This document shows, piece by piece, positions 10,709 to 47,489 of a stretch of DNA of 64,000 nucleotides. The notes under the pieces are model-generated. The model searched no databases and was not told where the DNA came from. It was given only the letters and a program-made list of their open reading frames with translations. The position numbers were made by a program, and so were the translations under genes. The stretch spans positions 4,836,001 to 4,900,000 of the forward strand of contig NZ_CP067101.1 in assembly GCF_016616425.1 (NCBI RefSeq). Reading direction: 5' to 3'. This DNA is from Bradyrhizobium diazoefficiens (lineage in GTDB: Bacteria; Pseudomonadota; Alphaproteobacteria; Rhizobiales; Xanthobacteraceae). The first letter of the stretch is position 1. The number at the start of each line of letters is the position of its first letter.

Positions 10709-11098
10709 ATGACTTACCATTTCACGAAGACGGTCAACCTTCCGTTCGACGCGGCTGTCGCGGCGACTACGGCTGCATTAAAGCAGCACGGGTTTGGCGT
10801 GCTCACTCAGATCGACGTGCAGGATACTCTCAAGCAGAAGATCGGGGCCGACTTCCGGCCGTATCTCATCCTGGGCGCCTGCAACCCCAAGCTCGCCCAC
10901 CAGGCGCTGACGCTTGAAGACAAGATCGGGACGATGCTTCCCTGCAACGTCGTCATTCAGCAACACGACGGCGGAACGGTTGAAGTCTCGGCGGTCGATC
11001 CCGTCGCCTCGATGGATGCGATCGAAAACCCGAAGCTCGGCGCCGTAGCCGGTCAGGTGCGCGAGTTGCTCAAGCAAGTCGTCAGCGAGATTGCCTGA
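10709..11098 (+). CDS. DUF302 domain protein
   Basis: A 129-residue soluble protein resembling the DUF302 family (TKTVNLPFDAAVAATTAALK near the start, LGACNPKLAHQAL in the middle). The start follows GGAGGCAGCTC. DUF302 proteins often co-occur with SQR and DUF2892 genes; their biochemical role is not established. Conserved cysteines in GACNP and LPCNV are visible. Confidence 0.85.
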   Translation: MTYHFTKTVNLPFDAAVAATTAALKQHGFGVLTQIDVQDTLKQKIGADFRPYLILGACNPKLAHQALTLEDKIGTMLPCNVVIQQHDGGTVEVSAVDPVASMDAIENPKLGAVAGQVRELLKQVVSEIA

Positions 11099-11113
11099 AG
11101 ACAGTCCGCACCG

Positions 11114-12570: not shown

Positions 12571-12580
12571 GCGGCATCAC

Positions 12581-13072: not shown

Positions 13073-13441
13073 CATTGCCGCCCAACTGGCAGTCCTGGCG
13101 ATCGCGATTGATCGAACCAGCATCGCATGTAACCGCGGAGAACCAATAATCGGAGTTCGTCGAACTGATGCTCATTAGGCGCGAGCAACGCCTTTGTCGC
13201 TTCCAGGGCGCCTCCGCCGCACGTCGGAATGGCTTCATCGGCGCGAGACCCGCAACTTCTCGACTGCAAATCGGCGTGGGTCTCGACGCCGATCGGCACG
13301 CTAAGTCTTTGAACTCACTTATCTGAGTGGGGTCATCCCGTCGCGCCGATTCACATGCTGGCAATTCATAAGCGTACTGGCCAGAGCGCGTTTGCTGGAT
13401 CCGAGGTGGTGGAGGAATCCACGCCTCCCGCAGAGCCCGGG
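13073..13441. other. Non-coding gap between convergent genes
   Basis: 369 bp between the stops of the membrane protein and the ferritin-like gene. Frames that open here have unusual composition and no recognisable similarity. No clear terminator or RNA was seen. Confidence 0.5.
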
Positions 13442-14308: not shown

Positions 14309-14377
14309 GATCGATTTCCTTTCCCTTGTTGATGTAGCGCAAAGTTCGGTTCTTTTCTGACCCTTAGATAGGCCCTC

Positions 14378-14391
14378 TTGACGGAGACCAA
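14378..14391. promoter_or_regulatory. FNR-like site upstream of nosR (imperfect)
   Basis: TTGACGGAGACCAA matches FNR half-sites at 8 of 10 positions but has CCAA in the second half. It lies in the divergent nosR/ferritin gap, next to a better box. Confidence 0.35.
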
Positions 14392-14392
14392 T

Positions 14393-14406
14393 TTGCGTTG
14401 GGTCAA
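14393..14406. promoter_or_regulatory. FixK-type box upstream of nosR
   Basis: TTGCGTTGGGTCAA matches TTG[A/C]-N6-[T/G]CAA exactly, about 100 bp upstream of nosR. FixK2/NnrR control of nos genes is established in Bradyrhizobium, so this is the likely activator site. Confidence 0.55.
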
Positions 14407-14507
14407 TCCGTTCTTCTTCCGGCCTCAACGGCGAACCCGGAACATCAACCATTCAAATTCGACGGAATGCGCGTCCTTGGGCAGGCCGTTCCGCTTTGAG
14501 GTACCCG

Positions 14508-16817: not shown

Positions 16818-16837
16818 AAGAAGCCGAGGAGACTATC

Positions 16838-18787: not shown

Positions 18788-18800
18788 TCGGAGCCGCTAC

Positions 18801-20156
18801 GTGCGCGTTCTCTCACGAGTATTTCCGGCGGCGCTCGTCGCCGCCGGAATTTCCGGCTTCGCTGCAGCGGAGACGCTGACGGCCGCCCCGGACCGACCGC
18901 TGCAGGAGCTGCTGGACCGGGCGAAGGACGGCGATGTCGTCGAACTCGCATCCGGCGTGTACAAGGGCACGATTCGCATCGATCGTTCCGTGATCCTGAG
19001 CGGCAGCGCCGGCGCGGTGCTTGATGGCGGTGGGACCGGTAACGTGATCACCGTTAGCGCGCCCGACGTGGCCCTTCGGGGCCTTACCGTGCGGGGGTCC
19101 GGCAACGATCTGCAGGCGATGAATTCGGGGATATTCCTCGAGAAAAAGGCCCTGCGCGCAAGCGTCGAGGACAATCATCTCTCGGGGAACCTGTTCGGGG
19201 TGTACATCCACGGTGCGGCAGGCTCGCAAGTCCTTCGCAACGAGATCGAAGGGCTGCGCGATGTTCGCCTCAGCGAGGCGGGAAACGGCGTCTCGCTCTG
19301 GAATGCTCCCGACGTGGTGATCGCCGATAACACGTTTCGCTATGGCCGCGACGGCATCTTTTCGATCTCCAGCCGCAAGGACCGTTTCCTCGGCAATCGC
19401 TTCGAACAGGTCCGGTTCGCGATCCATTACATGTACACCAACGACAGCGAGGTCAGCGGAAACGTATCTGTCGGCAATCACGTCGGCTACGCCATCATGT
19501 ATTCCAACCGTCTTGCGATCCGCGGAAACGTCTCCGATCGCGACCGCGACTACGGATTCCTCTTCAACTACGTCAACTATGCCGAGATTGAGGGCAACCG
19601 AGTGAGTGGCGGCCCTTTGAAAACATTGGCTGCAGCTGACGAAGGCCCAGGCGACGAACCGGGTATGATCCCAGAGGCGAAGCGAGGGCGCAATCTCCGG
19701 AGCGGTCCGGAGAAATGCGTGTTCATCTACAACACGAACCACAACAGATTCCGCGACAACTGGTTCGAACGCTGCGGCATCGGCGTGCACTTCACCGCGG
19801 GCTCCGAAGGTAACGAGATCTCGGGAAACGCCTTCGTCGGCAACGCCAATCAGGTGAAGTACGTCGGCACCCGGCACCTCGATTGGTCGACTGGCGGACG
19901 CGGCAACTTCTGGAGCGACAATCCCGCCTTCGACCTTGATGGGGATGGAATCGCCGATGCTGCCTACCGACCGAACGATCTCATCGATCGCGTGCTCTGG
20001 ACGGCGCCGGCGGCGAAGGTCCTGATCAACAGTCCCGCAGTCCAAGTGATCCGCTGGGCTCAAGCGCAATTCCCCGCATTGCTGCCGGGCGGCGTGGTCG
20101 ACAGCCATCCGCTGATGTCCCCACCAAAGCGCCGCACGGCCCAGGAGGCACGATGA
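18801..20156 (+). CDS. nosD: NosD, periplasmic copper-site maturation protein
   Basis: A 451-residue protein with a GTG start at 18801, 13 bp after nosZ. A Sec signal (ALVAAGISGFAAAE) is followed by a right-handed beta-helix made of repeats such as NDSEVSGNVSVGNHVGYAI. NosD works with the NosFY ABC transporter in supplying or assembling the CuZ centre of NosZ. It overlaps nosF by 4 bp. Confidence 0.96.
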   Translation: MRVLSRVFPAALVAAGISGFAAAETLTAAPDRPLQELLDRAKDGDVVELASGVYKGTIRIDRSVILSGSAGAVLDGGGTGNVITVSAPDVALRGLTVRGSGNDLQAMNSGIFLEKKALRASVEDNHLSGNLFGVYIHGAAGSQVLRNEIEGLRDVRLSEAGNGVSLWNAPDVVIADNTFRYGRDGIFSISSRKDRFLGNRFEQVRFAIHYMYTNDSEVSGNVSVGNHVGYAIMYSNRLAIRGNVSDRDRDYGFLFNYVNYAEIEGNRVSGGPLKTLAAADEGPGDEPGMIPEAKRGRNLRSGPEKCVFIYNTNHNRFRDNWFERCGIGVHFTAGSEGNEISGNAFVGNANQVKYVGTRHLDWSTGGRGNFWSDNPAFDLDGDGIADAAYRPNDLIDRVLWTAPAAKVLINSPAVQVIRWAQAQFPALLPGGVVDSHPLMSPPKRRTAQEAR

Positions 20157-21073
20157 CCGGCACGGTTCGCGTCAGGGACGTCATGAAGGAGTACGGCAGG
20201 GTCACGGCCGTCCGCGGCACTTCGTTCGAGCTGAACGAGGGCGAGCTGGTAGCGCTGATCGGCCACAACGGCGCCGGCAAGACCACGCTGATGAAACTGA
20301 TGCTGGGGCTGATCCGGCCGACCTCAGGCGCGATCGAGGTGCTCGGAGACAATCCCGCCGCGGGCGAGTTCGCCGGTCGCCGGCAGCTCGGCTACCTGCC
20401 GGAAAACGTTTCCTTCGATCCCGCCCTGACCGGCCGCGAAACTCAGGCCTTCTACGCCAGGCTGAAGCGAGAGCCGGTGGCGAAGGCGCTGGAGCTGCTC
20501 GAGACCGTTGGACTCGGGGCCGCCAGCCCCCGCCGGGTCAACACCTATTCGAAAGGCATGCGTCAGAGGTTGGGACTCGCCCAGGCGCTGATCGGGCGGC
20601 CCCGGGTGCTGCTGCTGGACGAGCCGACCACAGGCCTCGATCCGGAGCTGCGGCAGACCTTCTACGATGTCATTGCGCGGCTCGCCGCTGCGGGCGCGAC
20701 CGTGCTGCTCTCCTCGCACGCGCTGACCGAGCTCGAGGAGCGCGCCGGCCGGGTTATCATCATGAACCGCGGGCTTAAGGTCGCGGACGGATCCATCGAC
20801 GAGTTGCGCCGTCTCGCCCGCCTGCCGACCAGGATCCGCCTCAAGGTCGCTGGCCTCGCTCCGAGCGAGCTGCCGGGCTGGGCCCCCGCCGATGCCGTGT
20901 GCCGGCGGCTGAACGGCCACATCGTCGAGATCGATGCTGCGCCGGACCGGAAGATTGAGCTCCTGCATCGCGCGACGGCAGCTGGCAACTCCGTCGAGGA
21001 CATCGACGTGGCTCCGCCGACCCTGGACGAGCTCTACGCCCACTTCCTGCGGCAGTCGGAGCAAGTGTCATGA
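20153..21073 (+). CDS. nosF: NosF, ABC transporter ATPase
   Basis: A 306-residue cytoplasmic ATPase with Walker A GHNGAGKTT, signature YSKGMRQRLG, Walker B LLLDEPTTGLDPE and a switch His in SSHALTELEE. It energises NosY in CuZ maturation. The start overlaps the nosD stop (ATGA) and its stop overlaps nosY, so the genes are translationally coupled. Confidence 0.97.
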   Translation: MTGTVRVRDVMKEYGRVTAVRGTSFELNEGELVALIGHNGAGKTTLMKLMLGLIRPTSGAIEVLGDNPAAGEFAGRRQLGYLPENVSFDPALTGRETQAFYARLKREPVAKALELLETVGLGAASPRRVNTYSKGMRQRLGLAQALIGRPRVLLLDEPTTGLDPELRQTFYDVIARLAAAGATVLLSSHALTELEERAGRVIIMNRGLKVADGSIDELRRLARLPTRIRLKVAGLAPSELPGWAPADAVCRRLNGHIVEIDAAPDRKIELLHRATAAGNSVEDIDVAPPTLDELYAHFLRQSEQVS

Positions 21074-21897
21074 ACGTGCTGATCATTGCAGCCAAGGAAA
21101 TCCACCAGGCTATCCGCAATCGGTGGGTGCTGGCGGCCACACTTCTGCTTGCGGGGCTCGCCCTATCGCTGACCTTTCTCGGCAGCGCGCCCACCGGCAA
21201 CGTCGGGGTTCGCGCTCTCGATGTCGTCATCGTCAGCCTTTCGAGCCTGACGATCTTTCTCGTTCCCCTGATCGCGCTTCTCATCTCACACGACGCCATC
21301 GTGGGCGAGATGGAGCGCGGGACGATGCTGCTACTGCTCAGCTATCCGGTCGCCCGCTGGCAGGTGCTGCTCGGGAAGTTCCTCGGGCACCTCGCGGTGC
21401 TCGCCTTCGCGACTTGTCTCGGCTACGGTCTTGCCGTCGGCGCGCTGGCCGCCACCGGCAGTCGAATCGATACCGACAGCCTGCTGGCGTTCGCGGCCAT
21501 GGTCGGCTCCTCCGTGCTGTTGGGAGCCGCCTTCGTCGCGATCGGCTATCTGGTCAGCGCCTTCGCGCGCGACCGCGGCACGGCGGCGGGCATCTGCATC
21601 GGACTTTGGCTCCTGCTTGTCCTGATCTACGACATGGCGTTGCTCGGCGCGCTGGCACTCGACCAGGGTCGCAGCATCTCCGCGACCGCGCTGAATGCAA
21701 TGCTGCTGTTGAATCCAACCGACGCCTACCGGCTCTTCAACTTGACCGGCTTCGCCAGCGTCAGCACCTTCGCCGGCATGGCGGGGCTCGCCCAAAGCAC
21801 GTCCCTGACCATTCCGGTGCTTCTGGCGGCCCTGCTCTGCTGGACCGCGGTGCCGCTCGGTTTCGCCGCGCTGGCCTTTTCCCGGAGGGAGCTATGA
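21070..21897 (+). CDS. nosY: NosY, ABC transporter permease
   Basis: A 275-residue membrane protein with about six hydrophobic helices and the typical loop VGEMERGTMLLLLSYPV of ABC-2-type permeases. It partners NosF and NosD for copper-site assembly. It overlaps the genes on both sides by 4 bp. Confidence 0.96.
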   Translation: MNVLIIAAKEIHQAIRNRWVLAATLLLAGLALSLTFLGSAPTGNVGVRALDVVIVSLSSLTIFLVPLIALLISHDAIVGEMERGTMLLLLSYPVARWQVLLGKFLGHLAVLAFATCLGYGLAVGALAATGSRIDTDSLLAFAAMVGSSVLLGAAFVAIGYLVSAFARDRGTAAGICIGLWLLLVLIYDMALLGALALDQGRSISATALNAMLLLNPTDAYRLFNLTGFASVSTFAGMAGLAQSTSLTIPVLLAALLCWTAVPLGFAALAFSRREL

Positions 21898-22457
21898 GGC
21901 GTCTCGCGGCGGTCGCACTGGCTTTGATGGCTTCGCTGGCGCTGGCCGGCTGCCGCGAAAAGCCGACGGCCAAGGCTCCGGCGCCCCACAGGATGGCCGC
22001 CGAAGACATCGGTCACTACTGCGGCATGAACGTGCTCGAGCACCCGGGACCTAAAGGGCACATCTTCGTCGCAAGTCTGATCGAGCCTGTCTGGTTCTCG
22101 TCCGCGAGAGACGCCATCGCCTTCACCATGCTGCCGGACGAGCCGAAAGACATCCAGGCGATCTACGTCTCCGACATGGGCAAGGCGCCGAGCTGGGATA
22201 AGCCGGGTGCCGATAACTGGGTCGAAGCCAGGGAAGCGGTCTTTGTGATCGGAAGTCGCGCCCAGAGCGGCATGGGAGGCGACGAGGCGGTGCCATTCTC
22301 GGAGCGCGCGGCAGCCGAGATCTTCGTCCGCAAAAACGGGGGTAGGATCGTCCCTTTCGATCAGGTGCCTCGAGACTACGTTCTGACGTCGGCAAGCACT
22401 CAGGGGAGCGCCGCAATCGACGACGAGGCCGCCCCTCTCGGTCGGCCGAGCAATTAA
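21894..22457 (+). CDS. nosL: NosL, copper-binding lipoprotein
   Basis: 187 residues from ATG 21894, overlapping the nosY stop. It has a lipoprotein signal with lipobox LAGC near residue 19. The mature part begins with the Cu(I)-binding segment YCGMNVLEH, characteristic of NosL, and then the NosL fold (FSSARDAIAF). It delivers copper to NosDFY/NosZ in the periplasm. Confidence 0.95.
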   Translation: MRRLAAVALALMASLALAGCREKPTAKAPAPHRMAAEDIGHYCGMNVLEHPGPKGHIFVASLIEPVWFSSARDAIAFTMLPDEPKDIQAIYVSDMGKAPSWDKPGADNWVEAREAVFVIGSRAQSGMGGDEAVPFSERAAAEIFVRKNGGRIVPFDQVPRDYVLTSASTQGSAAIDDEAAPLGRPSN

Positions 22458-22467
22458 GGAGGACCGG

Positions 22468-23463
22468 ATGCCGAGCAAGATGTCCCGCCGACGTTTCATC
22501 CGGATCACCGCCGCAGCGTCAGGTCTCGGCCTTCTTCCCGCCGGCCACGTCGCCTGGGCCGGCGCTGGACCCGTCGTTTGGCGCGGCACGATGCTGGGCG
22601 CCAGCGCGACCATGGAGCTCCACCACGAGGACCGCGGTGAGGCGGAGCGGCTGGTTTCGCTGGCTACGAGCGAAGCGCGGCGTCTGGAGCGGCTGTTCAG
22701 TCTATATCTGAAGGATTCCGCTCTCGTCGAGTTGAACCGGACCGGGATTCTGGTGGATCCCGCCCCGGAAATGGTCGACCTGCTCACGATCTCGCAGCAC
22801 TACGCGAATCTAACCGGTGGATCGTTCGATGTGACGGTGCAGCCGCTGTGGGGTCTCCACGCCGGCCACTTCTCCCGCGATGATGCCGACCCGGCGGGTC
22901 CGGCGCCGAGCGCGGTGCAGGCGGCCTTGGCATGCGTCGGCTCCGAGCGCCTGTCCGTCAGCCGAGATCGGATCGCGATGCCGCACGGCATGGCCGTGAC
23001 CCTGAACGGGATCGCGCAGGGCTACGTGACTGATAAGGTCGTCGAGCTGCTGCAGGCCCATGGCATCACGCACAGTCTGGTCGATATGGGCGAGACCCGG
23101 GCCATCGGATCGCGTCCGGACGGACATCCATGGGAAGTCGGGGTGGCCGATCCGGAAGTCGCGGGGCGCACGGAAGCGGTCCTTTCGATCGTCGACCGCG
23201 CCGTGTCGACCTCCGGAACGTACGGCTTCCAGTTCGATCGCGATGGCCGTTTCAACCACCTTTTCGATCCAGGATCGGGCCGCTGCGCCGCTCGCTACCG
23301 GAGCGTCACCACGGTAGCCCGCAGCGCGACCGCCGCGGACGCGCTATCGACCGCCTTCAGCCTGCTGCCCGAGGAGAGGATCCGTTCGCTGATGCCGTAC
23401 GTCGACGTCGAACGGGTGCGCCTCATCGACGCGGCGGGCAAATCGTCTGAAATCGCCGCTTGA
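22468..23463 (+). CDS. nosX: NosX, ApbE-like FAD:protein FMN transferase
   Basis: 331 residues; GGAGGA precedes ATG 22468. The N-terminus has a twin-arginine-type signal (SRRRFIRI). The body matches ApbE: FDVTVQPLWGLH, LNGIAQGYVTD, the Mg/FAD site around GETRAIG, and SVTTVARSATAADALSTA. It flavinylates the NosR SGATVT threonine. It completes the nos operon. Confidence 0.95.
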   Translation: MPSKMSRRRFIRITAAASGLGLLPAGHVAWAGAGPVVWRGTMLGASATMELHHEDRGEAERLVSLATSEARRLERLFSLYLKDSALVELNRTGILVDPAPEMVDLLTISQHYANLTGGSFDVTVQPLWGLHAGHFSRDDADPAGPAPSAVQAALACVGSERLSVSRDRIAMPHGMAVTLNGIAQGYVTDKVVELLQAHGITHSLVDMGETRAIGSRPDGHPWEVGVADPEVAGRTEAVLSIVDRAVSTSGTYGFQFDRDGRFNHLFDPGSGRCAARYRSVTTVARSATAADALSTAFSLLPEERIRSLMPYVDVERVRLIDAAGKSSEIAA

Positions 23464-23497
23464 TCAATCCACTTGAAACCGAAAGAAGGAGAATTCG

Positions 23498-23890
23498 ATG
23501 AACCGGGCTGCACTTGTTGCCTTGTTTCTCGCGGCGGGTCTTGGCCACGCCAGTGCCCAGGATGCCGCCGCGGGCGAAAAGATCTTCGCCGTCTGCAAGG
23601 TCTGTCACCAAGTGGGGGACAACGCCAAGAACGTGGTCGGACCGGTTCTCAACGGTCTGATCGGGCGCAAGTCCGGGTCGGTCGAGGGCTACAGCTATTC
23701 CGCCGCAAACAAGAACTCAGGCATCACCTGGGACGAGGCGACCTTCAGCGATTACATCAAGGACCCGAAGGCCAAGATCCCGGGCACCAAGATGGCCTTC
23801 GCCGGCATCAAGGACGAGCAGAAGATCAAGGACCTGATCGCGTACCTGCACACCTTCGACAAGGCACCGGTCAAATTGACCCAGCAATAG
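23498..23890 (+). CDS. Class I cytochrome c (c2/c550-like)
   Basis: 130 residues with a Sec signal (LGHASAQ) and one CxxCH haem site (CKVCH). The axial Met lies in GTKMAFAG. Length and motif fit a soluble mitochondrial-type cytochrome c2. It starts 34 bp after nosX with an AGGAG site, so it may be co-transcribed and could carry electrons to NosZ, NorC or other reductases. Confidence 0.93.
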   Translation: MNRAALVALFLAAGLGHASAQDAAAGEKIFAVCKVCHQVGDNAKNVVGPVLNGLIGRKSGSVEGYSYSAANKNSGITWDEATFSDYIKDPKAKIPGTKMAFAGIKDEQKIKDLIAYLHTFDKAPVKLTQQ

Positions 23891-24142
23891 CTCTCGCGCG
23901 TGGATCCCCAGCCACGCCAAGGCTCTACGGCCTCTGCAGCTACGTACCTGAAATACCTCGGAAAATTCCGGGCGACACGCGGCGTGTGTAGCAGCCCGGT
24001 GCCGCATAGGTAAGGTCACGACGAGGCCGGCCTGCCAGGTCCCGAACGTGCGCATCTTGCGATGGTCCGACTCGGTCATTGATGCACGATATCGGGCACC
24101 GGCCGTTCGTACACATCGCGACTACGACGGCTCATCCGCCTA

Positions 24143-36424: not shown

Positions 36425-36677
36425 CGCTTCGCTTCATCTGCGCCGAAATCAAAAAGCCGCACCTTCAAATTCGCAGGGAGCAGAAAGAGGCTTTAGGCTT
36501 CAACGGTCCCGCATTGGTGCTGCGTCGGCAGACTGTTGCTGTTGCGGATGCAGGCTTCTGTGGATGCGCATGCATAGCACGAGACAAACTGGGTTCGCGA
36601 GCGGCGTATCGTGCCATTCTGCACGAGCGGCTTCGATGTGATTCACTAACGCAATAAATGATCGATTGGAGGCTATC

Positions 36678-37397
36678 GTGGCGAAGGAGGAAACGGGGTT
36701 CGGTACTATCAAGTGCCCAGGTTGTGGGGAGGCGATCCCGATCAGCGAAGCCATTCATCACCAAATTGCCGAACGAATGCACGAGGAATTTAAGGCCGAA
36801 GCGCTGGAAGCGCGACGGCTGCTTGCGACAAGAGAACGCGAACTGGATGAAAAAGCAGCAGCGCTTGATCGGACGGTTTCTGACAGGCTTGCTGCAGAAC
36901 GAGCTAAACTGTCAAAAGAGATTGAAGCACAATTGAGGTCCGGACTTTCAACTGAAATTGCGGACCTTAAGCGGCAGGTGGACGAACGGGCCGAACGGTA
37001 CTCGCAGGCAATCGAGCTTCAACTCCGAACCGAGAAGCGAAATCTAGAGGAACGAGAAAAGGCGCGCGATCTGGAAATGGCTAGAAAGCTTGACGAAGAG
37101 CGAGTCAGGCTTCAGCAAGAAATTTCGACGCGGCTCGAAGAAGAACATGCGCGGCAAGCAGCAGAGAAAGATAGGCGGCTTTCAGACGCCATGAAGGCTA
37201 ACGACGAGCTTAGGCGCAAACTGCAGCAGGGCTCGCAACAGCTTCAGGGAGAAGTGCTCGAACTTGCCCTGGAGGATTTGATTTCTCAAACGTTCCCATC
37301 GGATCTGGTTCAGCCCGTGCCAAAGGGCACCAACGGCGCGGACATAATGCAGCGTGTTCAGAACCCGAGGGCGCTCGCGACATGGCGCGCGAGATAG
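36678..37397 (+). pseudogene. DUF2130-family protein, 3'-truncated
   Basis: GTG start at 36678 with GGAGG five bases upstream. It has an N-terminal zinc ribbon (IKCPGCGEAIPISEAIHHQ), a coiled coil of about 150 residues, and then the start of the DUF2130 nuclease-like domain (ISQTFPSDLVQPVPKGTNGADI). The similarity stops at DIMQRVQNPR (about 37370), where a transposase remnant begins. Most of the catalytic-like domain is missing. Confidence 0.78.
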
Positions 37398-38525: not shown

Positions 38526-38861
38526 TCAGCCGTCCTTTTTCGAAGATTTCTGTTTTCCGATTGCCGCAAGACCGCTCTTTTCGGCCTTCTCCTTGCGAGC
38601 CGACAAGATGCTCGGATGAAGCTTGGGGCGGCGGATGCGAATGCCGACGCCGACGGCGGCATCGTCGTCATCCATCAGGAATTCGACGCCCATCTCCTCC
38701 AGGCAATCCACCAGTGCCTTCAGAGTGCGATCGTGCGGAATACGGCCGCCGTTTTCAAGATGGGCAATGGTCCGCGTGGCGACCTTCGAGGCCATCGCCA
38801 GCTCGGCTTGTGAGATGCCGAGCCAGACGCGTGCGGATGCGATTTGCCGACCGTTAACCAT
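38526..38861 (-). CDS. XRE-type helix-turn-helix regulator
   Basis: 111 residues from ATG 38861; a start seven codons further out would run into the palindrome. The HTH (GISQAELAMASKVATRTIAHLENGG) is at the N-terminus. The middle (ALVDCLEEMGVEFLMDDD) resembles short chromosomal XRE regulators, and the tail is Lys-rich. It is divergent from the HNH operon, with an inverted repeat 4 bp from its start codon, so it probably represses itself and that operon. Confidence 0.85.
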   Translation of the reverse strand: MVNGRQIASARVWLGISQAELAMASKVATRTIAHLENGGRIPHDRTLKALVDCLEEMGVEFLMDDDDAAVGVGIRIRRPKLHPSILSARKEKAEKSGLAAIGKQKSSKKDG

Positions 38862-38864
38862 GAT

Positions 38865-38883
38865 TGTGCATTTCTGGTGCACA
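38865..38883. promoter_or_regulatory. Inverted repeat, probable XRE operator
   Basis: TGTGCA, a 7-bp spacer and TGCACA form a perfect repeat in the 72-bp gap between the XRE and HNH genes. Two CATATG hexamers follow at 38882 and 38893. It is placed to control both divergent genes. Confidence 0.55.
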
Positions 38884-38933
38884 TATGCATTTCATATGCT
38901 AAACCATCCCCGTCGAAATCGAACGAGGCCCCC

Positions 38934-39377
38934 ATGACGTTCCCCGATGCCGCCGGCCAGCCCTGTTGCAACCTGGGCGACCGCCAACCGTCCATCCCCG
39001 GCAAGGTCGCGCCCTCGCCCGTCGCGTACACATCCACCCAGCGCGATTCGGATTTCTACGCACGCTACATCAGCAGCGCCGCTTGGCAAACCAGCCCCGC
39101 CCGTCTCGCCGAGCTCCGGGCCGCTGGTCAACGCTGCCGACTGTGCTTCGTCTCGGGTGAGGACGTGCGGCTCGAAGTCCATCATCGCACCTACCGCAAT
39201 TTCGGCTGCGAACTTCCCGACGACCTCACCACCCTGTGTCACGACTGTCACCTAGACGTGACGTGCATCCAGCGCGCGCGCAAGTACGCGCGGTCCCCCG
39301 TCGTGCCGCCCGACTACGTGCCCGTCGCCCCGCCGCCTCCGCTGTTCGATTACCGCCCCGCTCTGGAGATCGCCTGA
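38934..39377 (+). CDS. HNH-type zinc protein (putative nuclease)
   Basis: 147 residues from ATG 38934. The HNH core reads CRLC, then LEVHHRTYRNFGCELPDDL, then LCHDCH, with the two CxxC zinc pairs and the HH catalytic-like pair in place. The rest is Pro-rich. It is the first gene of a tightly spaced operon; its stop overlaps the next start (TGATG). Whether it cuts DNA is unproven. Confidence 0.8.
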   Translation: MTFPDAAGQPCCNLGDRQPSIPGKVAPSPVAYTSTQRDSDFYARYISSAAWQTSPARLAELRAAGQRCRLCFVSGEDVRLEVHHRTYRNFGCELPDDLTTLCHDCHLDVTCIQRARKYARSPVVPPDYVPVAPPPPLFDYRPALEIA

Positions 39378-39958
39378 TGAGCATTGAGAAGATTTCCCTG
39401 CGTCTGGTCGGCGTCGGCCCCATGCTCATGCACAATTCCCGCTTGGGCGACCCGCTCGACCCTATCACTAAGGCATTGGCCGCGGTGACCTCGAAACGCC
39501 TGAAGACCGAGGCCGACCATATGAGAATTGCCGAACTGGAATTCCACGGCTCGCTCTATCTGCATCACGGCGCCCCCTGCCTGCCGCAGAAGATGATCAA
39601 GAGCGTATGCGTCGACGGCGCCACGAAGCTCAAGATGGGCGACACGACCAAGGCCGCGTTTCGCGCCGAGGGCGCCGCGCTGCTTCAGTTCGACGGCCAC
39701 AAAACCGCAGCAGAACTCTGGGCGGATGAACGTTTCCGCCATCGTGCCGTCGTCAGGATCCGCAGCCGCGGCACGCTCGCGGTGAGGACCCGCCCGATTT
39801 TCGATAACTGGAGCGCGGTGGTGCACGGCACATACCTGCCCTCGCTGCTCGATCGCGAGAACATCGTGGAATTCTTCCGCATGTCCGGCCTCTTCGGGCT
39901 CGGCGACTACACCCCCGAATACGGGCGCTTCCAGGTGCAGGAAGTTTCGCTCGAATAA
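39377..39958 (+). CDS. Unknown phage-type protein
   Basis: 193 residues; the start overlaps the HNH stop by one base. Distinct segments are VGPMLMHNSRLGDPLDP, KTEADHMRIAELEFHG and the end GLGDYTPEYGRFQV. Similar proteins of unknown role occur in phages and islands. The Gly-rich GLGDYTPEYGRF end resembles RAMP/Cas-like ferredoxin folds in style only; I do not claim that relation. Confidence 0.7.
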   Translation: MSIEKISLRLVGVGPMLMHNSRLGDPLDPITKALAAVTSKRLKTEADHMRIAELEFHGSLYLHHGAPCLPQKMIKSVCVDGATKLKMGDTTKAAFRAEGAALLQFDGHKTAAELWADERFRHRAVVRIRSRGTLAVRTRPIFDNWSAVVHGTYLPSLLDRENIVEFFRMSGLFGLGDYTPEYGRFQVQEVSLE

Positions 39959-40097
39959 GCTCCGCGTGCCGGGGCGTGGCCCGGCGAGGCATGGCAGGGC
40001 CCCCCGTGGATCTTCCGCGACGGATTCCACAAGCAAATGACGACACGAACGGTTCAACGCGCAGGCTTCGCCTTGCGCGAACGATGGAGCCTCCCCT

Positions 40098-40474
40098 TTG
40101 ATCAAGCCCCCCAACGACGGCCGAGGACATCGCGACGAGGGCAGTGATGAGCTGTGGCCCGCGGTGCTGCAATACTGGCGGAGCATCCCGGCCGAGGCGT
40201 TCGACGACACGATCAAGGCCGAGGTGACCGCATTCATGCGCGCTACGACGTCGATGATCCCGGAGTGGCGGCGAGCAATCTCCGGGGACGCTGCGACGGC
40301 AATCGCCATGGTCGCTCACTGCAAGGAGCCGACGTCGATCGGCGTCAAGAGATGCCGCTTGAGCCCCGCCTGCGCGCCAAGCTGGCGATGTCGTGGCGGG
40401 TCGCCGCCAATCTGCTGTCGTCGTCGTTGCGCCGAGCTACTCGCCGTAACCTGCGCCGCGGAGGCGAGGCGTGA
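40098..40474 (+). pseudogene. Unknown small protein, probably frameshifted
   Basis: The ATG 40098 frame reads naturally through ELWPAVLQYWRSIPAEAF and AISGDAATAIAMVAH, but from about 40345 turns Arg/Cys-rich. A second frame then reads naturally (MPLEPRLRAKLAMSWRVAAN) and stops at 40472-40474, overlapping the next GTG. This suggests one gene of about 125 residues with an indel, or two short overlapping genes. Confidence 0.45.
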
Positions 40475-40662
40475 TCGTTCAGCGCATTTCAGATTCTCAC
40501 ATATCGCGCCGGGCTTTCCGGCTTGCCTCCGCCGGGTGCCGGCCTCGAACTCGGCGTGTCATCGGCAATGCCGTCGCGCAGAACATCCGCGCCTCGGCCA
40601 TGCGCAACGATTTCGCCCGGACGGGCGAGCAGGAACGCGTCAAGGAGCAGTTCAAACCATGA
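40471..40662 (+). CDS. Short ORF with overlapping start and stop
   Basis: 63 residues, GTG start inside GTGA with the previous stop; its own stop lies in ATGA with the next gene. The start (MIVQRISDSHIS) recalls the first DxH motif of metallophosphoesterases, but nothing else of that fold follows. It is supported mainly by the double overlap. Confidence 0.4.
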   Translation: MIVQRISDSHISRRAFRLASAGCRPRTRRVIGNAVAQNIRASAMRNDFARTGEQERVKEQFKP

Positions 40663-41276
40663 CCGAGAACACAAAGTTGCCGGGGCGCAGGTGCCGGCAC
40701 GGTGGAAGTCGCCATGCTGGCGCCGGCTCGGCCCTCGCGATCACTCAGAAGCGTATCGCTGCCCACGCCGGCATCGACAACACGGCCTGGCGCATCAAGC
40801 GGCCGCCGAATCAGCCCTGGCCGTTTAAGGCTGTGCAGACTCCGCCCCTGCAATGGTGGCGGACGCTGCCCTCGGATGGATTTCGCGACGCAGAGCAACT
40901 GCTCTTGCTCAAAACGCTGGAGCGGATCCGCGTGCTCCGCGGCGGCGACGATCCCGCCGCCGCGCTGTGTGGCGATCCGGCCGCGGCTATCGGCGTCGCC
41001 TTTACCTTGATGCCAATCGAGGAGTTCACGCTGGAGGTCGACATCGCGATGACGGCGCTCTTGCGCTGCGCACTCGAGCGAAACGCGGCCGCCGCACTTG
41101 TGCTGGCGCAGATCGTCGGGCTGACGGAATTCGAACACGAGTTCGCGACGGAGCTGGCCGCGTCTTGGTACGTCCATGGCAGGCGCCATTCGGCCAATCC
41201 GCGTCAGTTCAGCGAGGCAGAGGCCGTGCTGTTGTCGGCGTTCCGGCAGCGTCACCGCGACGGAGAGAACGCATGA
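40659..41276 (+). CDS. Unknown protein of the AAA/exonuclease operon
   Basis: 205 residues from ATG 40659, with AAGGAG 12 bases upstream. It is basic at the N-terminus (RRCRHGGSRH), then helical (LLLLKTLERIRVLRGGDDP, LTEFEHEFATELAASWYVHG). No family recognised. It is coupled to both neighbours by ATGA overlaps. Confidence 0.65.
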   Translation: MTENTKLPGRRCRHGGSRHAGAGSALAITQKRIAAHAGIDNTAWRIKRPPNQPWPFKAVQTPPLQWWRTLPSDGFRDAEQLLLLKTLERIRVLRGGDDPAAALCGDPAAAIGVAFTLMPIEEFTLEVDIAMTALLRCALERNAAAALVLAQIVGLTEFEHEFATELAASWYVHGRRHSANPRQFSEAEAVLLSAFRQRHRDGENA

Positions 41277-41449
41277 AGGAGCAAATGTTTTCGGACCTGC
41301 ATCTCGGTGTGCTGCCGATCGAGGCGATCTCGATCGCCGACGGCATCGACGCCGTGATCGTGGCCGGCGATGTTTGCGAAGGCGCGGTGCCGGCCGGCAG
41401 GCAAGTGATGGGGAGTCCATCGTTCTTCTCTCGCCTCAACCAGGAGTAA
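41273..41449 (+). CDS. Metallophosphoesterase N-terminal fragment
   Basis: 58 residues, start overlapping the previous stop (ATGA). It has motif I (FSDLHL) and motif II (VIVAGDVCEGA) of calcineurin-like phosphoesterases, then ends. The later GNH and H motifs are absent, so it cannot be a working enzyme alone. It is a truncated relic kept in frame, or a small protein. Confidence 0.55.
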   Translation: MKEQMFSDLHLGVLPIEAISIADGIDAVIVAGDVCEGAVPAGRQVMGSPSFFSRLNQE

Positions 41450-41454
41450 AGTTC

Positions 41455-41868
41455 GTGAGTTCATCCATGCTGACGCGCCTATTCCCGTTCCTCGATCCCG
41501 CCCACATTACGCCGGACCTGGCGCTCCGACTCCGCGCGCTGGCCGACGATTGCGACAGCCTCGAACGCCGGCGTCCAGTCTCGCCGAACCTGCTGCAAAA
41601 GGCGCCGCTCCTGACTGACTGGGTACCGGCGGTTACGCCCGAAGGCGTGAAGTTGATCGGACGCGTTACTGGCCATCCTCGGCTCGGGGATTGCGCAGCC
41701 GCCACCACGCCCCTCTGGTTCGCCGATCCGGATGGCGCGTGGGCGCGCTCCCTGTCGCGCTTCTACCGGCTGGGTCCGCCGCTCGATCATGATGATATCC
41801 GCAGTGTCTTGCGACGGATGGCGACCGCTGGCGCTACCAGCGGCGACGGCTCGGAGGACGAGGCATGA
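41455..41868 (+). CDS. Unknown protein preceding the AAA+ ATPase
   Basis: 137 residues from GTG 41455, with AGGAG overlapping the previous gene's end. Sequence features are DPAHITPDLALRLRALADDC, VKLIGRVTGHPRLGD and LSRFYRLGPPL. I recall similar unassigned proteins in Rhizobiales but no function. The stop overlaps the ATPase start (ATGA). Confidence 0.65.
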   Translation: MSSSMLTRLFPFLDPAHITPDLALRLRALADDCDSLERRRPVSPNLLQKAPLLTDWVPAVTPEGVKLIGRVTGHPRLGDCAAATTPLWFADPDGAWARSLSRFYRLGPPLDHDDIRSVLRRMATAGATSGDGSEDEA

Positions 41869-43439
41869 GCACGACCGATGATGCCGATGATCTCGGTCTG
41901 CCGGCGCTGGCGGACGATGCGGTCTCGACCGGCGCAGCTGCGGATTCGTCGGACTGGGACGAACGTTTGAAGGATCTGCCCCGGCTGCTCCGCTACGCCA
42001 TGTTCATCACCGACAGCGCCGAGCATATCGAGCAGCGGCTGATTGCCGAGATCGACGAATTGTGTCCAAAGCTTCCCCACACCGTGGCCTGGGCCTTAGC
42101 CTCCGGCGTCGATGCGGGACTTGCGCTCGCCGCCGAGCTCGACCACCGCGCAGTCGTCCAGAACGAGCCGACTTTGCGCAGCCTTGCCGACTGCGTGCGA
42201 CTGTTGTGCCTGCCGACGCCAAGCGATCGGACCTACTTCGAGGACTACCGCAGGGTCGGGAAAGCGCTGATCCAGGCTTTTCAAGTCGCTTCGCGGCACG
42301 CTGAGGACGAGCTCTGCTGCGATCTCGAGAGCTTCGTATTCGGATGGGCGGCACTGGCGTTCTGCACCGACCTGCTGTCGAGGGCAGTTTTGGCGGCGCG
42401 GAACGCCGGCTTCCTCGGTATTCGCATGGCGGAGCACCGCGTTGCTGCGGCGGCGAGGACCGCCCGGCGCAAGGTCAAGGAGGAGGAACAGCGCAGGAGG
42501 AAGGACGAGGCTGAGGAAAAGGCCGTCGAACGCGCTGCGCAGGCTTCCAAGGCTGTCGCGGAAACCGTGCCTGACCATCATCTGGTGGTCGCTCGCCTGA
42601 GCAGCGAGGAGATGAAGAACAGTAAGCTAAAGGACATTCTTGGTCCGCTGAAGAGCGTCATCAACATGCCTCTGCCGCTGGTCGAGGTGCCGCCTCTGCA
42701 CGAAGTCCGCTCCATGCTTCTGTTCGAATTCCCTTACGCCGCGGATGTCATCGATTTCGCACTCGCGGACCTCGTTGGGCGTCTCACGGTGAGACTTCGT
42801 CCGCTCCTGCTGGTCGGCGATGCCGGGGGTGGCAAGAGCCGGTTTGCGCGGCGGCTGGGCGAGGTGCTGGGCCTCACGGTCTGGCGTACGGACGCAAGCC
42901 GAAGCGACGGCGCCGTGTTCGGCGGTACCGACCGCCGCTGGTATTCGGCCGAACCCTGCCATCCCTTCCTGGCCGTCGCGCAGGGCAAGATTGCGAACCC
43001 TCTCGTCCTTCTCGAAGAAATCGAGAAGGCCGCCACGCGCAGCGACTATGGACGGCTGTGGGACTGCCTGCTCGGCTTCTGCGAGCCGGAGACCAATGCC
43101 CGCTATCCGGATCCTGCGCTGCAGACGAACCTTGACCTCTCGCACGTCTCCTACGTCGCCACCGCCAACAGCGTCGACCCCCTGCCCTCGCCCATCCGCG
43201 ACCGGTTTCGCGTGGTGAGGTTTCCTAAGCCGACCGCCGGCGATCTCGATGCGCTCTTGCCGGCTGTAATCGCTGACCTTGCCAGCGAGCGCGGCCTCGA
43301 TGCGAGTTGGATTCCGGCGCTTGACGGTGCCGAACACATCGCCGTTGCGCGCAACTGGCGTGGCGGCTCCGTCCGACGTCTGCGCCGCATCGTTGAGGCG
43401 ATTCTGCGCCAGCGCGACGCCAATGCCACCAGAAATTGA
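41865..43439 (+). CDS. Lon-like AAA+ ATPase without protease domain
   Basis: 524 residues. Residues 1-195 are an unassigned helical domain, 197-226 a charged coiled coil, and 285-510 an AAA+ module: Walker A GDAGGGKS (318-325), Walker B VLLEEIEK (381-388, Glu in place of the usual Asp), sensor 1 YVATANS (430-436) and arginine finger in SPIRDRF (442-448). The module resembles Lon and BrxL-like ATPases, but no serine-lysine protease domain follows. It would remodel a protein or nucleoprotein partner. It overlaps the genes on both sides. Confidence 0.85.
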   Translation: MSTTDDADDLGLPALADDAVSTGAAADSSDWDERLKDLPRLLRYAMFITDSAEHIEQRLIAEIDELCPKLPHTVAWALASGVDAGLALAAELDHRAVVQNEPTLRSLADCVRLLCLPTPSDRTYFEDYRRVGKALIQAFQVASRHAEDELCCDLESFVFGWAALAFCTDLLSRAVLAARNAGFLGIRMAEHRVAAAARTARRKVKEEEQRRRKDEAEEKAVERAAQASKAVAETVPDHHLVVARLSSEEMKNSKLKDILGPLKSVINMPLPLVEVPPLHEVRSMLLFEFPYAADVIDFALADLVGRLTVRLRPLLLVGDAGGGKSRFARRLGEVLGLTVWRTDASRSDGAVFGGTDRRWYSAEPCHPFLAVAQGKIANPLVLLEEIEKAATRSDYGRLWDCLLGFCEPETNARYPDPALQTNLDLSHVSYVATANSVDPLPSPIRDRFRVVRFPKPTAGDLDALLPAVIADLASERGLDASWIPALDGAEHIAVARNWRGGSVRRLRRIVEAILRQRDANATRN

Positions 43440-44440
43440 TCGAGCTCATCAGCGTGCTAAAACCGCCAACCATCCGATTCGGGTTGCCGTGGAGGCAACC
43501 AGAGAATCCTGCAAATACAGCCGCTCCTGAAGTCCCGATCGCTCAGGAGACTTCTGCGCCACGAGATGCCGAAGCGGCCGAGACGATGGCGCGCGCACTC
43601 GAAGCGACCGGTGATTTCAAGATTCTGCGCCGCCTCGTGCCACGGCCTGTCGAACCTCGCTTCGCGACCGATCGAATTGGACTGATAATCGACCTGGAAA
43701 CGACCGGCCTCGATACCACGCGCAACGAGGTCCTCGAAATCGCCGCCGTTAAGTTCGGCTATGCTGACGATCGGATCACCTCCGTCATTGGTACCTTCCA
43801 AGGATTCCAGCAGCCGTCGGCGCCGATTGAGCCTGCGATCACCGCCCTGACCGGCATCACGAATGTGATGGTCGAGGGTCATCACATCGATGGCATAGCG
43901 CTCGAGCAATTCGTGGCGGACACACACATCGTAATCGCTCACAACGCTGCCTTCGACCGCAAAGTCGCGGAACGACACTGGCCGTTCTTCGCGAACTGTC
44001 ACTGGGCCTGTTCGGCAACTGGCATCAACTGGAAAGCCCATGGCCTCAGCGGCGCCCGCCTCGCCTACCTGCTCTCGGAATTCGGCCTGTTCCACGACGC
44101 TCACCGTGCGCTGGATGATTGTAACGCGGTCCTCGAGATTTTGGCGTTTGATCTTCCTGGCACGGAGCAATCCGGGCTTGCGGCTCTGCTCGATCGCGCG
44201 CGTCGCCCTCAGCACCGCATCTGGGCTGATGGCGCACCGTTCGCACTGAAAGAGATGCTTAAGCAGCGTGGCTATCGGTGGAACGACGGCACGGATGGGC
44301 GGCCGAAGGCCTGGTACGTAGATGCCGATGCCGTCGACGCCGAACTGGACTACCTGCGAAAGGAGATCTACCGGAGGGACGATCTGGACATCGTATGGCG
44401 TACGATAACGTCGCTCGATCGATTTTCTAGCCGGATTTAG
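43436..44440 (+). CDS. DnaQ-like DEDDh 3'-5' exonuclease
   Basis: 334 residues from TTG 43436, overlapping the ATPase stop; a GTG six codons downstream is an alternative. The exonuclease motifs are complete: Exo I DLETTG (86-91), Exo II HNAAFD (169-174), Exo III HRALDD (223-228). The C-terminal 90 residues (LKEMLKQRGYRWNDGTDGRPKAW) form an extra domain seen in some DnaQ-like proteins. It probably trims DNA or RNA ends as the effector of this operon. Confidence 0.9.
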   Translation: MIELISVLKPPTIRFGLPWRQPENPANTAAPEVPIAQETSAPRDAEAAETMARALEATGDFKILRRLVPRPVEPRFATDRIGLIIDLETTGLDTTRNEVLEIAAVKFGYADDRITSVIGTFQGFQQPSAPIEPAITALTGITNVMVEGHHIDGIALEQFVADTHIVIAHNAAFDRKVAERHWPFFANCHWACSATGINWKAHGLSGARLAYLLSEFGLFHDAHRALDDCNAVLEILAFDLPGTEQSGLAALLDRARRPQHRIWADGAPFALKEMLKQRGYRWNDGTDGRPKAWYVDADAVDAELDYLRKEIYRRDDLDIVWRTITSLDRFSSRI

Positions 44441-45715: not shown

Positions 45716-45940
45716 ATGGCGAACGACGTCGACACTTCCTCGGAATTGTCCAAGATCGCGAAACTGAACGGCGACTTCCGTAGGAACTACGGCACTTTCA
45801 TCGGAGCGATTTTGTATCTCCGCACCGTGAGCGCCGCCCGCCGAAGCCCTTGGCTCTGGGCCGGTCTGATTTCGATCGCTTTTTCGACGGTCCTGAGCTG
45901 GCTGGGGCGGCACGGCTGGTCTTTGCCAGCGTTGCTTTGA
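45716..45940 (+). CDS. Possible small single-helix membrane protein
   Basis: 74 residues with GAGGAG about 13 bases before the ATG and one hydrophobic segment (LWAGLISIAFSTVLSWLG). It overlaps the 3' end of the recombinase on the other strand by 143 bp, which argues against it. Confidence 0.3.
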   Translation: MANDVDTSSELSKIAKLNGDFRRNYGTFIGAILYLRTVSAARRSPWLWAGLISIAFSTVLSWLGRHGWSLPALL

Positions 45941-47489
45941 TAGCAGCGAATAATGCCTCTTCTTCTCCGTAAAGCACGGCCCGATGCCGGCGAAGGGAAC
46001 CGGAAGAAAGCCAGACGTAGCGTCCTGCCTTCAACGTGGCAGGCAACAGCACGTAGTCCTGGATCTGCCGATTCGCCGCGTCCAACCTCATCACGGCGAG
46101 GAGGCCAGATGAGATCTGCCTTCGGTAGGCTTTCCATTGCGGTGCGTGGTCCTCTCCCCGACGCGCCCGTTGTCGCGCAACGAGAAAAGAAACCACGCGC
46201 TTGCCTTCTACCTCAAGGCCCATGCCGTCGGGAAGTAGGCCAGCCTGAAGGCCAAGGTCGGTTCGCAGCATCTCCGCGAACTCGGCGGCATGCCTTGCTT
46301 GCTCGGACGCCCACAAATCTTTGGTCTCGATCCAGCCGCAGTCGCGCGGCGACACGTAGCCGATCAGCGCATAGGCCTTCCGCAGCGAGCCGAAGTGCTT
46401 CACGTAGGAGGACACGTGATTGAGACCGAGCGTCGTATTGATGATGCGCGAATTGAGCTTGCCGCGCCGGCGAAGTGTAAGACGAAGGCGCAGCAGCATT
46501 TCCTCTTCTGGAATCTCTACGCGCCGCTCCGCAAGCAGCTTCTGGGCGCGTGCGAAGATGCCCGGGTCCACCATGGGCTCGATCGCCGCAGAGCCGCGTA
46601 CCCATGCGTGATCAGGGTTCTTGACCAGCTTCTGTCCCAGGCGTCGCGAGGTCCGATTGTAGATGGTCTTGCCGATGTAGTTCTCGTTCGCGAGGATGGT
46701 GGGTATCATGCCGTCGGTCCAGGGCCGGCCGTTGCGATTGGCGATGCCCGCGTCGTTCAGTTGGCGCCTGATGTCGCTGTACGATTTCCGGCCGTTGACG
46801 AACTGATCGAAGATAGTCCGGATCACGGCTGCCTCTTTCGGGGAGCCGGGCTGCAGTCGAACGCGATCCGATTGCAGAGCCTTGAACTGGCCCTTTTCGA
46901 GGAAGGCCTTCGGGTGCTCGCTTTCGTCGACCATCAGGCGTCGGAGACCGTAGCCGACAGGAGCGCCGACGCGGTATCCGAGGCTCGCGACTCGGCAATG
47001 TCCCGCGTGCACCTTGACCGAGAGCTCTCTGCTCCACTCGGCGGCCATGCCTCGCTTGAGACTTTTCGCGATCCCGGAGACGAATGTGCCGTCGTTCTTG
47101 AAGAGCTCCGCGCAGTATTCGACCTGCACTCCGCTCCGCTTGCACAGGAATTCGTAGTAGGCACTCTCGTCGACGTCCTGGAAGCGGCCCCACCGACTGA
47201 CGTCGTAGACGAGGATGTGGTCGAAGTCGGCCTGCCCCGATTGGACGTCCTCGATCAGCTCGATGAGCCCAGGTCGTCCCTTGATCCGGAGGCCGCTGCG
47301 GCCTTCGTCAGCATAGGTGCGAACGATCGTGAGAGCGTTCGCCTCGGCATAGGCGGCGATGGCCGCCATCTGGTTCTTGATCGAGTAGCGTTGGAGCTCC
47401 CTCGACATCCGGACGTATTGCGCGGCGTGGCGCGCTCGGGTCCGCCTCGCCAGGCTTGTCCCTTTGGGAATGACGAGCCAGTTCCCCAT
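45798..47489 (-). CDS. Large serine recombinase
   Basis: 563 residues. The N-terminal resolvase domain has the catalytic serine in YVRMSREL (about residue 29) and the conserved Arg in VSRWGRFQD. The recombinase domain (TIFDQFVNGRKSYSDIRRQL, ANENYIGKTIYNR) follows, then a long basic C-terminus (KKRSKSDRPRAKG). It lacks the usual Cys-rich zinc ribbon, as in phage or island recombinases of Rhizobiales. It is probably the integrase of a genomic island covering part of 37-47 kb, but I cannot identify its att sites. Confidence 0.9.
   Translation of the reverse strand: MGNWLVIPKGTSLARRTRARHAAQYVRMSRELQRYSIKNQMAAIAAYAEANALTIVRTYADEGRSGLRIKGRPGLIELIEDVQSGQADFDHILVYDVSRWGRFQDVDESAYYEFLCKRSGVQVEYCAELFKNDGTFVSGIAKSLKRGMAAEWSRELSVKVHAGHCRVASLGYRVGAPVGYGLRRLMVDESEHPKAFLEKGQFKALQSDRVRLQPGSPKEAAVIRTIFDQFVNGRKSYSDIRRQLNDAGIANRNGRPWTDGMIPTILANENYIGKTIYNRTSRRLGQKLVKNPDHAWVRGSAAIEPMVDPGIFARAQKLLAERRVEIPEEEMLLRLRLTLRRRGKLNSRIINTTLGLNHVSSYVKHFGSLRKAYALIGYVSPRDCGWIETKDLWASEQARHAAEFAEMLRTDLGLQAGLLPDGMGLEVEGKRVVSFLVARQRARRGEDHAPQWKAYRRQISSGLLAVMRLDAANRQIQDYVLLPATLKAGRYVWLSSGSLRRHRAVLYGEEEALFAAIKATLAKTSRAAPASSGPSKKRSKSDRPRAKGFGGRRSRCGDTKSLR

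Follow-up and report, generated by a model that had tools for sequence, protein, structure and literature searches.

An operon with a probable nuclease-armed VIPR system in Bradyrhizobium diazoefficiens and its likely guide to He_PIG-motif DNA

The window analyzed here is a 64,000-nucleotide stretch of Bradyrhizobium diazoefficiens DNA (NCBI RefSeq assembly GCF_016616425.1, contig NZ_CP067101.1, positions 4,836,001 to 4,900,000), taken from a genome of 7.14 Mb that forms a single contig. At 38526–44440 it harbors an operon whose 5' half is probably a chromosomal, nuclease-armed VIPR (Viral Interference Programmable Repeat) system, a class of systems that a preprint of 2026 introduced as a precursor of CRISPR (PMC13142463). 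Its components would be an HNH protein, the protein Vipr and one guide RNA (vrRNA) encoded behind vipr, the guide matching DNA for the He_PIG motif, with a proposed anti-phage action. Gene calls were re-read from the window sequence, and families were assigned from Pfam, PHROG, NCBIfam, PADLOC and PDB profile comparisons. In window coordinates, the features are:

38526–38861, minus strand: XRE-family regulator, divergent from the operon (Pfam HTH_3, E = 2.1e-9)
38865–38883, no strand: candidate operator TGTGCA-N7-TGCACA, 6-bp arms, short
38934–39377, plus strand: HNH nuclease-type protein and candidate Vipr-accessory (vap) nuclease, with an uncertain start codon; the open reading frame (ORF) opens at 38844
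39377–39958, plus strand: Vipr, 193 aa, intact frame (PHROG 4652, E = 2.4e-38; PDB 36pp_D)
39960–40009, plus strand: likely vrRNA guide tract, ten period-5 units, seven of them perfect YNNGG
40005–40030, plus strand: predicted hairpin following the tract, a candidate for the 3' tail of the vrRNA
40098–40474, plus strand: "hypA", disrupted
40471–40662, plus strand: doubtful short ORF, flanked by the hypA remnant and hypB, no PHROG family
40659–41276, plus strand: "hypB", conserved, function unassigned, no Pfam family
41273–41449, plus strand: metallophosphoesterase N-terminus, remnant (Metallophos_2 positions 1–38 of 154, E = 0.019; own profile, 3e-9)
41455–41868, plus strand: DUF6634 protein (PF20339, E = 2.9e-13)
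41865–43439, plus strand: Lon-like AAA+ ATPase without a protease domain, N-terminal part variable
43436–44440, plus strand: DEDDh 3'-5' exonuclease in the 3' slot of the operon (RNase_T, E = 5.6e-18; NCBIfam PRK09182, 362 bits against a cut-off of 207)

An earlier, sequence-only reading had described a divergent XRE gene facing a run of genes that included an HNH protein, a protease-less Lon-like ATPase and a DnaQ-type exonuclease. All four are recovered; the HNH protein matches thirteen PHROG HNH families at E≤0.08, and its Pfam HNH score (15.8 bits) lies under the 21.4-bit cut-off. The perfect inverted repeat reported beside the XRE gene is present, with arms of just 6 bp, as one among ten 6-nt pairs (palindromes counted) within 141 bases, and by itself it is a weak operator candidate. 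Several relatives carry a divergent XRE gene in the same position, and the longer inverted repeats close to the XRE start in two of them (L086 and L100) make an operator at this point plausible. A scan for sigma-70-type promoters found none. The proposed joining of the genes by overlaps of 1–4 bp applies to five junctions: 1 bp between the HNH gene and vipr, and 4 bp between the 40471 ORF and hypB, hypB and the phosphoesterase remnant, the DUF6634 gene and the ATPase gene, and the latter and the DEDDh gene, whose TTG start codon lies in the overlap. It fails between vipr and the hypA remnant, where a 139-bp gap (39959–40097) contains the YNNGG tract. Nor is this a run of whole genes, since hypA is broken and the phosphoesterase is represented by its N-terminus only.

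As judged by sequence comparison, the VIPR part of the operon is identified by one formerly unknown protein, Vipr. A profile of 42 family members aligns over its whole length (187 positions) with PDB chain 36pp_D, "SUSP1 Vipr protein" (E = 9.6e-58). According to the preprint, Vipr is an ancestral RAMP and binds vrRNAs that consist of 9–16 tandem YNNGG units, carry a 3' tail of conserved structure and are encoded near vipr; the NN pairs recognize double-stranded DNA, with one base skipped between pairs (PMC13142463). The locus offers a homologous Vipr, a YNNGG tract in the DNA next to its gene, matches in viral DNA under the 1-nt skip, and a nuclease-type gene beside vipr. Thus a layout that the sequence-only reading could not match to a known system finds its closest counterpart in VIPR, types III and V in particular, although no type is assigned here. 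Neither He_PIG nor the operon of XRE, HNH, AAA+, DUF6634 and DUF2130 or DEDDh genes is mentioned in the preprint's main text (PMC13142463). Whereas the NN pairs are hypervariable in the two clades analyzed there (PMC13142463), here a single guide per locus keeps one protein motif. The likeness to Class 1 CRISPR-Cas lies in Vipr being a RAMP relative (PMC13142463); in contrast to those systems, the repeats are 5-nt units, and the family matches of the operon include no cas-type gene, a general DEDDh model aside.

A nuclease-type gene accompanies vipr in every genus locus mapped. A vipr match occurs in 25 of 190 Bradyrhizobium genomes (27 matches) and in 7 of 297 genomes of the order, and an HNH-profile match lies directly 5' of vipr in all 20 further genus loci mapped (about 12 kb each). 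Seventeen of these 20 have a same-strand AAA-type gene, downstream of vipr in 12 and upstream in 5; two of the ATPases are Lon-like and 15 FtsH-like (one weakly so). An FtsH-like version in L012 includes an M41 peptidase domain. DEDDh or DUF2130 matches follow in 5 of the 20 loci. PHROG 4652 is common in viral contigs: of 145 candidate stretches, 114 were confirmed. Pseudomonas phage LESphi2 (L014; 5594–5893, 6004–6588) also encodes a Vipr homologue, listed as a hypothetical protein, with three YNNGG tracts just upstream. This arrangement resembles a VIPR system, and the He_PIG motif is not matched by its guides. In one genome of the order, L928, four YNNGG tracts of 11 to 25 units stand beside a weak Vipr match (E = 2.9e-14).

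The tract at 39960–40009 is likely the vrRNA guide, to judge by its repeat pattern and position. Its NN pairs read TC GT GG GT CC GA AT AG CC GT, and the strongest stretch, six perfect units at 39970–39999, scores 12, against 8.5 for the best of 100 shuffles. Among 16 vipr loci (including two duplicates, L195 = L099 and L196 = L097), 14 have their best YNNGG tract immediately behind the vipr match, on its sense strand, with scores of 11.5–29. The exceptions are two phage loci, L014 and L015, whose best tracts are located elsewhere; in L013 the tract falls within a longer, annotated ORF. When 35 core loci of the ATPase operon (defined below) were rescanned, the six with vipr scored 11.5–26, whereas all 29 without vipr scored at most 6; operon versions that lack vipr thus lack such a tract. 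Between 12 and 17 units are found in L010, L012, L085 and L097, and the NN pairs are conserved among Bradyrhizobium loci. Imperfect units comparable to those of the window recur in L009, L098 and L181, which may reflect either a subtype or shared decay. The hairpin at 40005–40030 is predicted in four related loci, and the single-sequence fold has z = -0.86.

When the 1-nt skip is applied, the guide complements the sense strand of DNA that codes for T-G-L-I-S-G-T-P-T-[DE]; this peptide is the signature of a conserved turn in He_PIG-type Ig-like domains. Such domains occur in phage tail fibers and bacterial adhesins. The skipped base falls on the codon wobble position, so that the target stays readable when a third base changes synonymously. 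In viral contigs, a 14-base core searched with a skip of 1 gave, among the matches listed, 82 matches in 80 loci that were kept; 66 of the 82 lie antisense in one frame of a long ORF and encode I-S-G-T-P-T with the skip at the wobble base, in 65 different flanks. The window's own 16-base guide matches 59 viral stretches, 51 of them antisense in one frame, with 41 different flanks; all ten units agree in two stretches, nine in 28 and eight in 29. Matches of the 2-skip and 0-skip controls are scattered over the frames. The motif stretch of one viral ORF that matches ten of ten units (L555) resembles the tail-fiber gene of one phage (33.5% identity, E = 4e-8, two records). Raw match counts were discarded as evidence, the 14-base controls likewise matching at least as many stretches as listed, and so was a regular-expression count of He_PIG-like ORFs (61/82, 49/59, controls 0), which is partly circular in that ISGTP is already encoded by the search pattern. 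A profile built from 28 bacterial He_PIG domains chosen by Pfam, applied with the motif masked, recognizes 12 of the 82 core matches and 3 of the 59 window-guide matches, and none of the controls (0/80 reversed, 0/80 2-skip, 0/60 0-skip), a signal that is clear but modest since the bacterial profile is narrow.

Across 190 genus genomes the core matches 35 times in 10 genomes, mostly in tandem arrays, as against 3 matches in 3 genomes for the reversed pattern; in three of the ten genomes, searched with Pfam, 7 of 8 core matches fall within He_PIG domains, on the opposite strand. Because the core was derived from the guides, the test was also run in reverse, on 30 He_PIG loci chosen by Pfam alone (96.9 kb) and an equal amount of control DNA, with 28 guides of at least 8 units. 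At skip 1 the mean best match fraction was 0.702 in He_PIG DNA, compared with 0.548 in control DNA and 0.545 for shuffled guides (sd 0.072), whereas at skips 0, 2 and 3 the two kinds of DNA hardly differed; only skip 1 separates them. Decoded guides include SSTGAISGTP, GVISGTPTTAG, GLLSGTPTTVGT-Y-SV and TGVI[RS]GTPT, in the last of which the serine codon would be AGY. At least 5 of 7 motif units are present in 25 of 27 genus guides (1.7% of shuffled guides), at least 6 in 24 (0.1%) and all 7 in 16 (0.0%), figures to be read with the guides' shared ancestry in mind, which makes them non-independent, and with a counting motif that was set after the first guides had been decoded. None of nine vipr loci from elsewhere fits the motif. 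Some guides (L902, L903, L917) use an AGY instead of a TCN serine codon, and this two-base swap would be difficult to account for unless the encoded serine were under selection.

Several observations weigh against this interpretation. Concerning the tract, three of the ten window units lack GG; the L009 tract equals the best of its 100 shuffles (11.5 in both cases) and that of L181 (11.5) falls below its best shuffle (12), although each exceeds its 95th percentile (8 and 7, respectively); and the tail hairpin is not backed by covariation (double changes in 0 of 32 pairs). Concerning the target, 16 of the 82 core matches and 8 of the 59 window-guide matches lie outside the motif frame, and the reversed-pattern control also places 60 of 80 matches in one frame, 50 of which are near-copies from one cluster, with 9 clusters in the favored frame. 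The masked profile recognizes only a minority of the viral matches, the single genomic core match of G026 lies outside a He_PIG domain, the guides of L907 and L922 fail the motif, and at skip 1 control DNA gives L922 a better match than He_PIG DNA does, with L901 and L917 matching both equally well. The genus guides do not count as separate witnesses, and the matched viral contigs may have hosts other than Bradyrhizobium. Two accessory genes of the window copy are broken. Finally, expression of the locus, DNA binding and phage defence, together with cutting by HNH, the part played by the ATPase and the function of a partly decayed copy, are what we infer.

The remainder of the operon is centered on the ATPase. 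With a threshold of E≤1e-40, 43 of 195 genus genomes carry it; it is also present on Bradyrhizobium plasmids and, more distantly, in other Proteobacteria, and its nearest named relatives are from Bradyrhizobium. Neither condition that the sequence-only reading set for its own refutation, a gene order not conserved elsewhere or close matches in intact prophages with assigned roles, was borne out. Gene order is conserved in other Bradyrhizobium chromosomes and plasmids. At least 37 relatives of the ATPase exist in viral contigs, and among the matches listed only two (55% and 37% identity) exceed about 34%; the Vipr protein, in contrast, belongs to a common phage family. The earlier suggestion of a defence-type system under a repressor fits the conserved order and the defence genes near relatives, but it overlooked the identifying Vipr and its guide. 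Like Lon, the ATPase contains an AAA+ module (TIGR00763, E = 2e-19; family profile against PDB Lon, E = 4e-43), and Lon families are its nearest; unlike Lon, the protein stops after this module, has no peptidase match and reaches 69.6 bits against a Lon cut-off of 608. It has the motif GxxxxGKS and E-E where D-E is usual, at what we take to be the Walker B position.

Profile mapping covered 40 ATPase loci, 36 of which form the core loci. Their middle recurs: hypB (27 of 36 by clustering), sometimes the phosphoesterase and DUF6634 genes, and then AAA+. The 5' slot holds HNH and Vipr, a GIY-YIG-type gene, a gene of family P11 or nothing recognized, and the 3' slot holds DUF2130, DEDDh or neither. 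As far as gene content tells, the ATPase operon is modular and exchanges nuclease-type genes. In an ATPase tree (a quick search of 36 rows, in which the DUF2130 label of L099 is a distant fragment and that of L095 a short remnant), the window groups with L083 and L084 (SH-aLRT 99), which carry P11 and DUF2130, so that both slots differ between sisters; the DEDDh label changes three times, one of its five rows (L113) being a fragment. An apparent AAA-DEDDh fusion in L114 was rejected as proof of linked function, its ATPase tail being out of frame through a frameshift.

The mechanism proposed for the nuclease-armed VIPR would run as follows. The XRE regulator would hold operon expression low; the Vipr-vrRNA complex would locate He_PIG-motif coding DNA in an incoming phage; and the HNH protein, the likeliest cutter because it adjoins vipr in every genus locus mapped, would cut or degrade the phage DNA, perhaps with the DEDDh exonuclease. 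The ATPase, hypB and DUF6634 may assemble, load or remodel the complex, and these three and the 3' exonuclease are possible loading, remodeling or degradation factors shared with the GIY-YIG and P11 versions. A broader proposal, to which we give slightly better than even chances, is that the Bradyrhizobium VIPR acts as an inborn RNA-guided pattern-recognition receptor: each locus would keep one guide that reads, in a noncontiguous, wobble-blind code, the conserved GxISGTPT of He_PIG-type domains such as those of tail fibers, guides would diversify mostly within the limits of the motif (including the serine codon-family switch), and a protein family would be recognized via its gene rather than one phage. 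If so, many related species would possess a host-borne, nuclease-armed VIPR with a natural target readable from the genome, and the 1-nt-skip code would gain support from natural sequences alone. A use for a wobble-skipping code is also suggested, namely that a fixed guide may follow a protein motif with no need for updating. The preprint's model, in which viral VIPR was taken over by hosts for immunity (PMC13142463), would become directly testable in ordinary soil bacteria.

The most serious competitor, whose chances we put a little short of even, makes the operon of AAA+, hypB, DUF6634 and nuclease genes the main defence system, with an ATPase complex as effector and VIPR (HNH, Vipr and vrRNA) as one of several interchangeable 5'-slot sensors alongside GIY-YIG and P11. 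Most core loci indeed have GIY-YIG or P11 in the 5' slot while hypB, AAA and the 3' gene (DUF2130 or DEDDh) often remain, the two ATPases nearest to that of the window have both slots filled differently, and the GIY protein of L011 matches the PADLOC candidate PDC-S14. However, L106–L111 have GIY and AAA (one without a GIY call) but no hypB, and none of the AAA, DUF2130 and DEDDh profiles matches at the vipr locus L941, layouts which indicate that neither part strictly needs the other. It is improbable, in our estimate, that the VIPR part is real but silences He_PIG adhesin genes of the host or a resident element by transcriptional repression instead of killing phage. VIPR has been shown to act as a repressor (PMC13142463). 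He_PIG domains are present in 44 of 117 genus genomes as bacterial proteins, often very long and repeated, so the targets need not be phage genes, and this rival was kept for that reason. Yet the genome's own He_PIG locus (L879) matches the window guide in at best 5 of 10 units, that genome has no exact core match, the He_PIG locus of G032 (L869) matches the G032 guide in at best 6 of 10, just one of the ten genomes with a core match carries vipr (G026), which is about chance level, and the HNH gene that accompanies vipr at every locus examined points to cutting.

We regard as very improbable that the operon serves mobile elements such as plasmids and tRNA-borne islands as a module for DNA processing or maintenance and not for defence, with defence genes as fellow cargo. 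Copies or ATPase relatives do lie on conjugative plasmids beside virB/virD4-type genes and near tyrosine recombinases, which in L090 and L091 stand next to tRNA-Gln, and many neighbors are ordinary chromosomal genes, but such a module leaves guides that track one protein motif unexplained. That the window copy is a dead remnant seems unlikely, though not far-fetched. By its reading frames it is partly decayed: relative to L009, hypA has lost an internal stretch and changed frame, the phosphoesterase is truncated (a complete homologue stands in L010 at 11162–11950, Metallophos E = 9.4e-10), and seven of the ten repeat units are perfect. Outside the window, at a distance of about 29 kb from its ATPase gene, the same genome carries another, broken copy of that gene together with a hypB remnant (L008, 9720–11836; G000:C1, about 4908 kb). 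Against a dead locus stand the open frames of HNH, Vipr, hypB, DUF6634, ATPase and DEDDh, the absence of hypA and the phosphoesterase from many relatives as well, and a guide that still decodes fully and matches two viral contigs in 10 of 10 units.

The defence context was surveyed in relatives. From 28 loci of relatives, 125 of 266 eligible neighbors were scanned with PADLOC at E≤1e-10 and gave 77 families, the 25 listed including pAgo, GajA/GajB, Upx, LmuA, DrmD, BrxHI and methyltransferases. As a control, 20 random stretches of these genomes were sampled; 109 of their 147 eligible proteins were scanned and matched 22 families, among them fourteen HerA models, GajB, GlgB, mad2/mad8, caspase and QatD. 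At 10 of the 28 loci, those of the list below, neighbors match families outside the control set, whereas those found at L099 (caspase) and L114 (mad2) are also given by the control. The Pfam tally of the 125 neighbors is led by ordinary families (enoyl-CoA hydratase 5, TctC 3, transposases 2 each). Thirty neighbors, most picked as promising, were also scanned singly with PADLOC, which gave:

L009: SIR2-APAZ
L086: TIR-APAZ and pAgo
L083: Upx
L084 and L094: GajA
L098: MkoA-like helicase
L091: pAgo
L090: IetS
L104: LmuA
L010: type II methyltransferase

A TniQ match was found in a neighbor of L102, and ABC-3C-type and PIN-TPR-GreABC domains in L092 and L088. Within the operon itself, the HNH, Vipr, AAA and DUF6634 proteins match no PADLOC family at E≤0.01, and DEDDh matches only the general DEDDh model and PDC-S48. 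The link of the L011 5'-slot GIY gene to PDC-S14 (E = 7.3e-26) does not extend to the window, which lacks a GIY gene and holds HNH and Vipr in that slot. For the islands at L090 and L091, a second copy of the tRNA end was not found with the pattern used.

Family P11 (L083, L086, L092, L100, L114), which is unnamed, comprises proteins of about 290 aa that share the conserved stretch KRGNG; a Pfam search gave no match for the one member tried (L100). The pair of GIY-YIG and AAA genes at L106–L111, where the other operon genes are absent, occurs in two groups of genus genomes, three in each, that share flanking genes (L109 is the one without a GIY call); it probably represents old versions passed on vertically. 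In many relatives (L009, L010, L011 and others) the operon closes, 3' of AAA, with a DUF2130 gene, the commonest gene of the 3' slot; conserved acidic and lysine residues in the protein alignment might point to a nuclease. The DUF2130 proteins gave no useful match in the PDB, and no relatives were confirmed in viral contigs. One open literature library had no match for DUF6634, only incidental mentions of DUF2130 and nothing relevant for the operon terms. A fragment of a DUF2130 protein also precedes the operon in the window:

36642–37397, plus strand: DUF2130 protein fragment, upstream of the operon (profile match 1e-75)

A simple repeat scan for att sites around the operon gave none convincing, and no simple empty site was found for the window flank. 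A large serine recombinase with Recombinase and Resolvase domains lies beside the operon (45798–47489, minus strand), and the region from about 10000 to 24000 presumably carries nos-type denitrification genes, which we recognized from their protein sequences.

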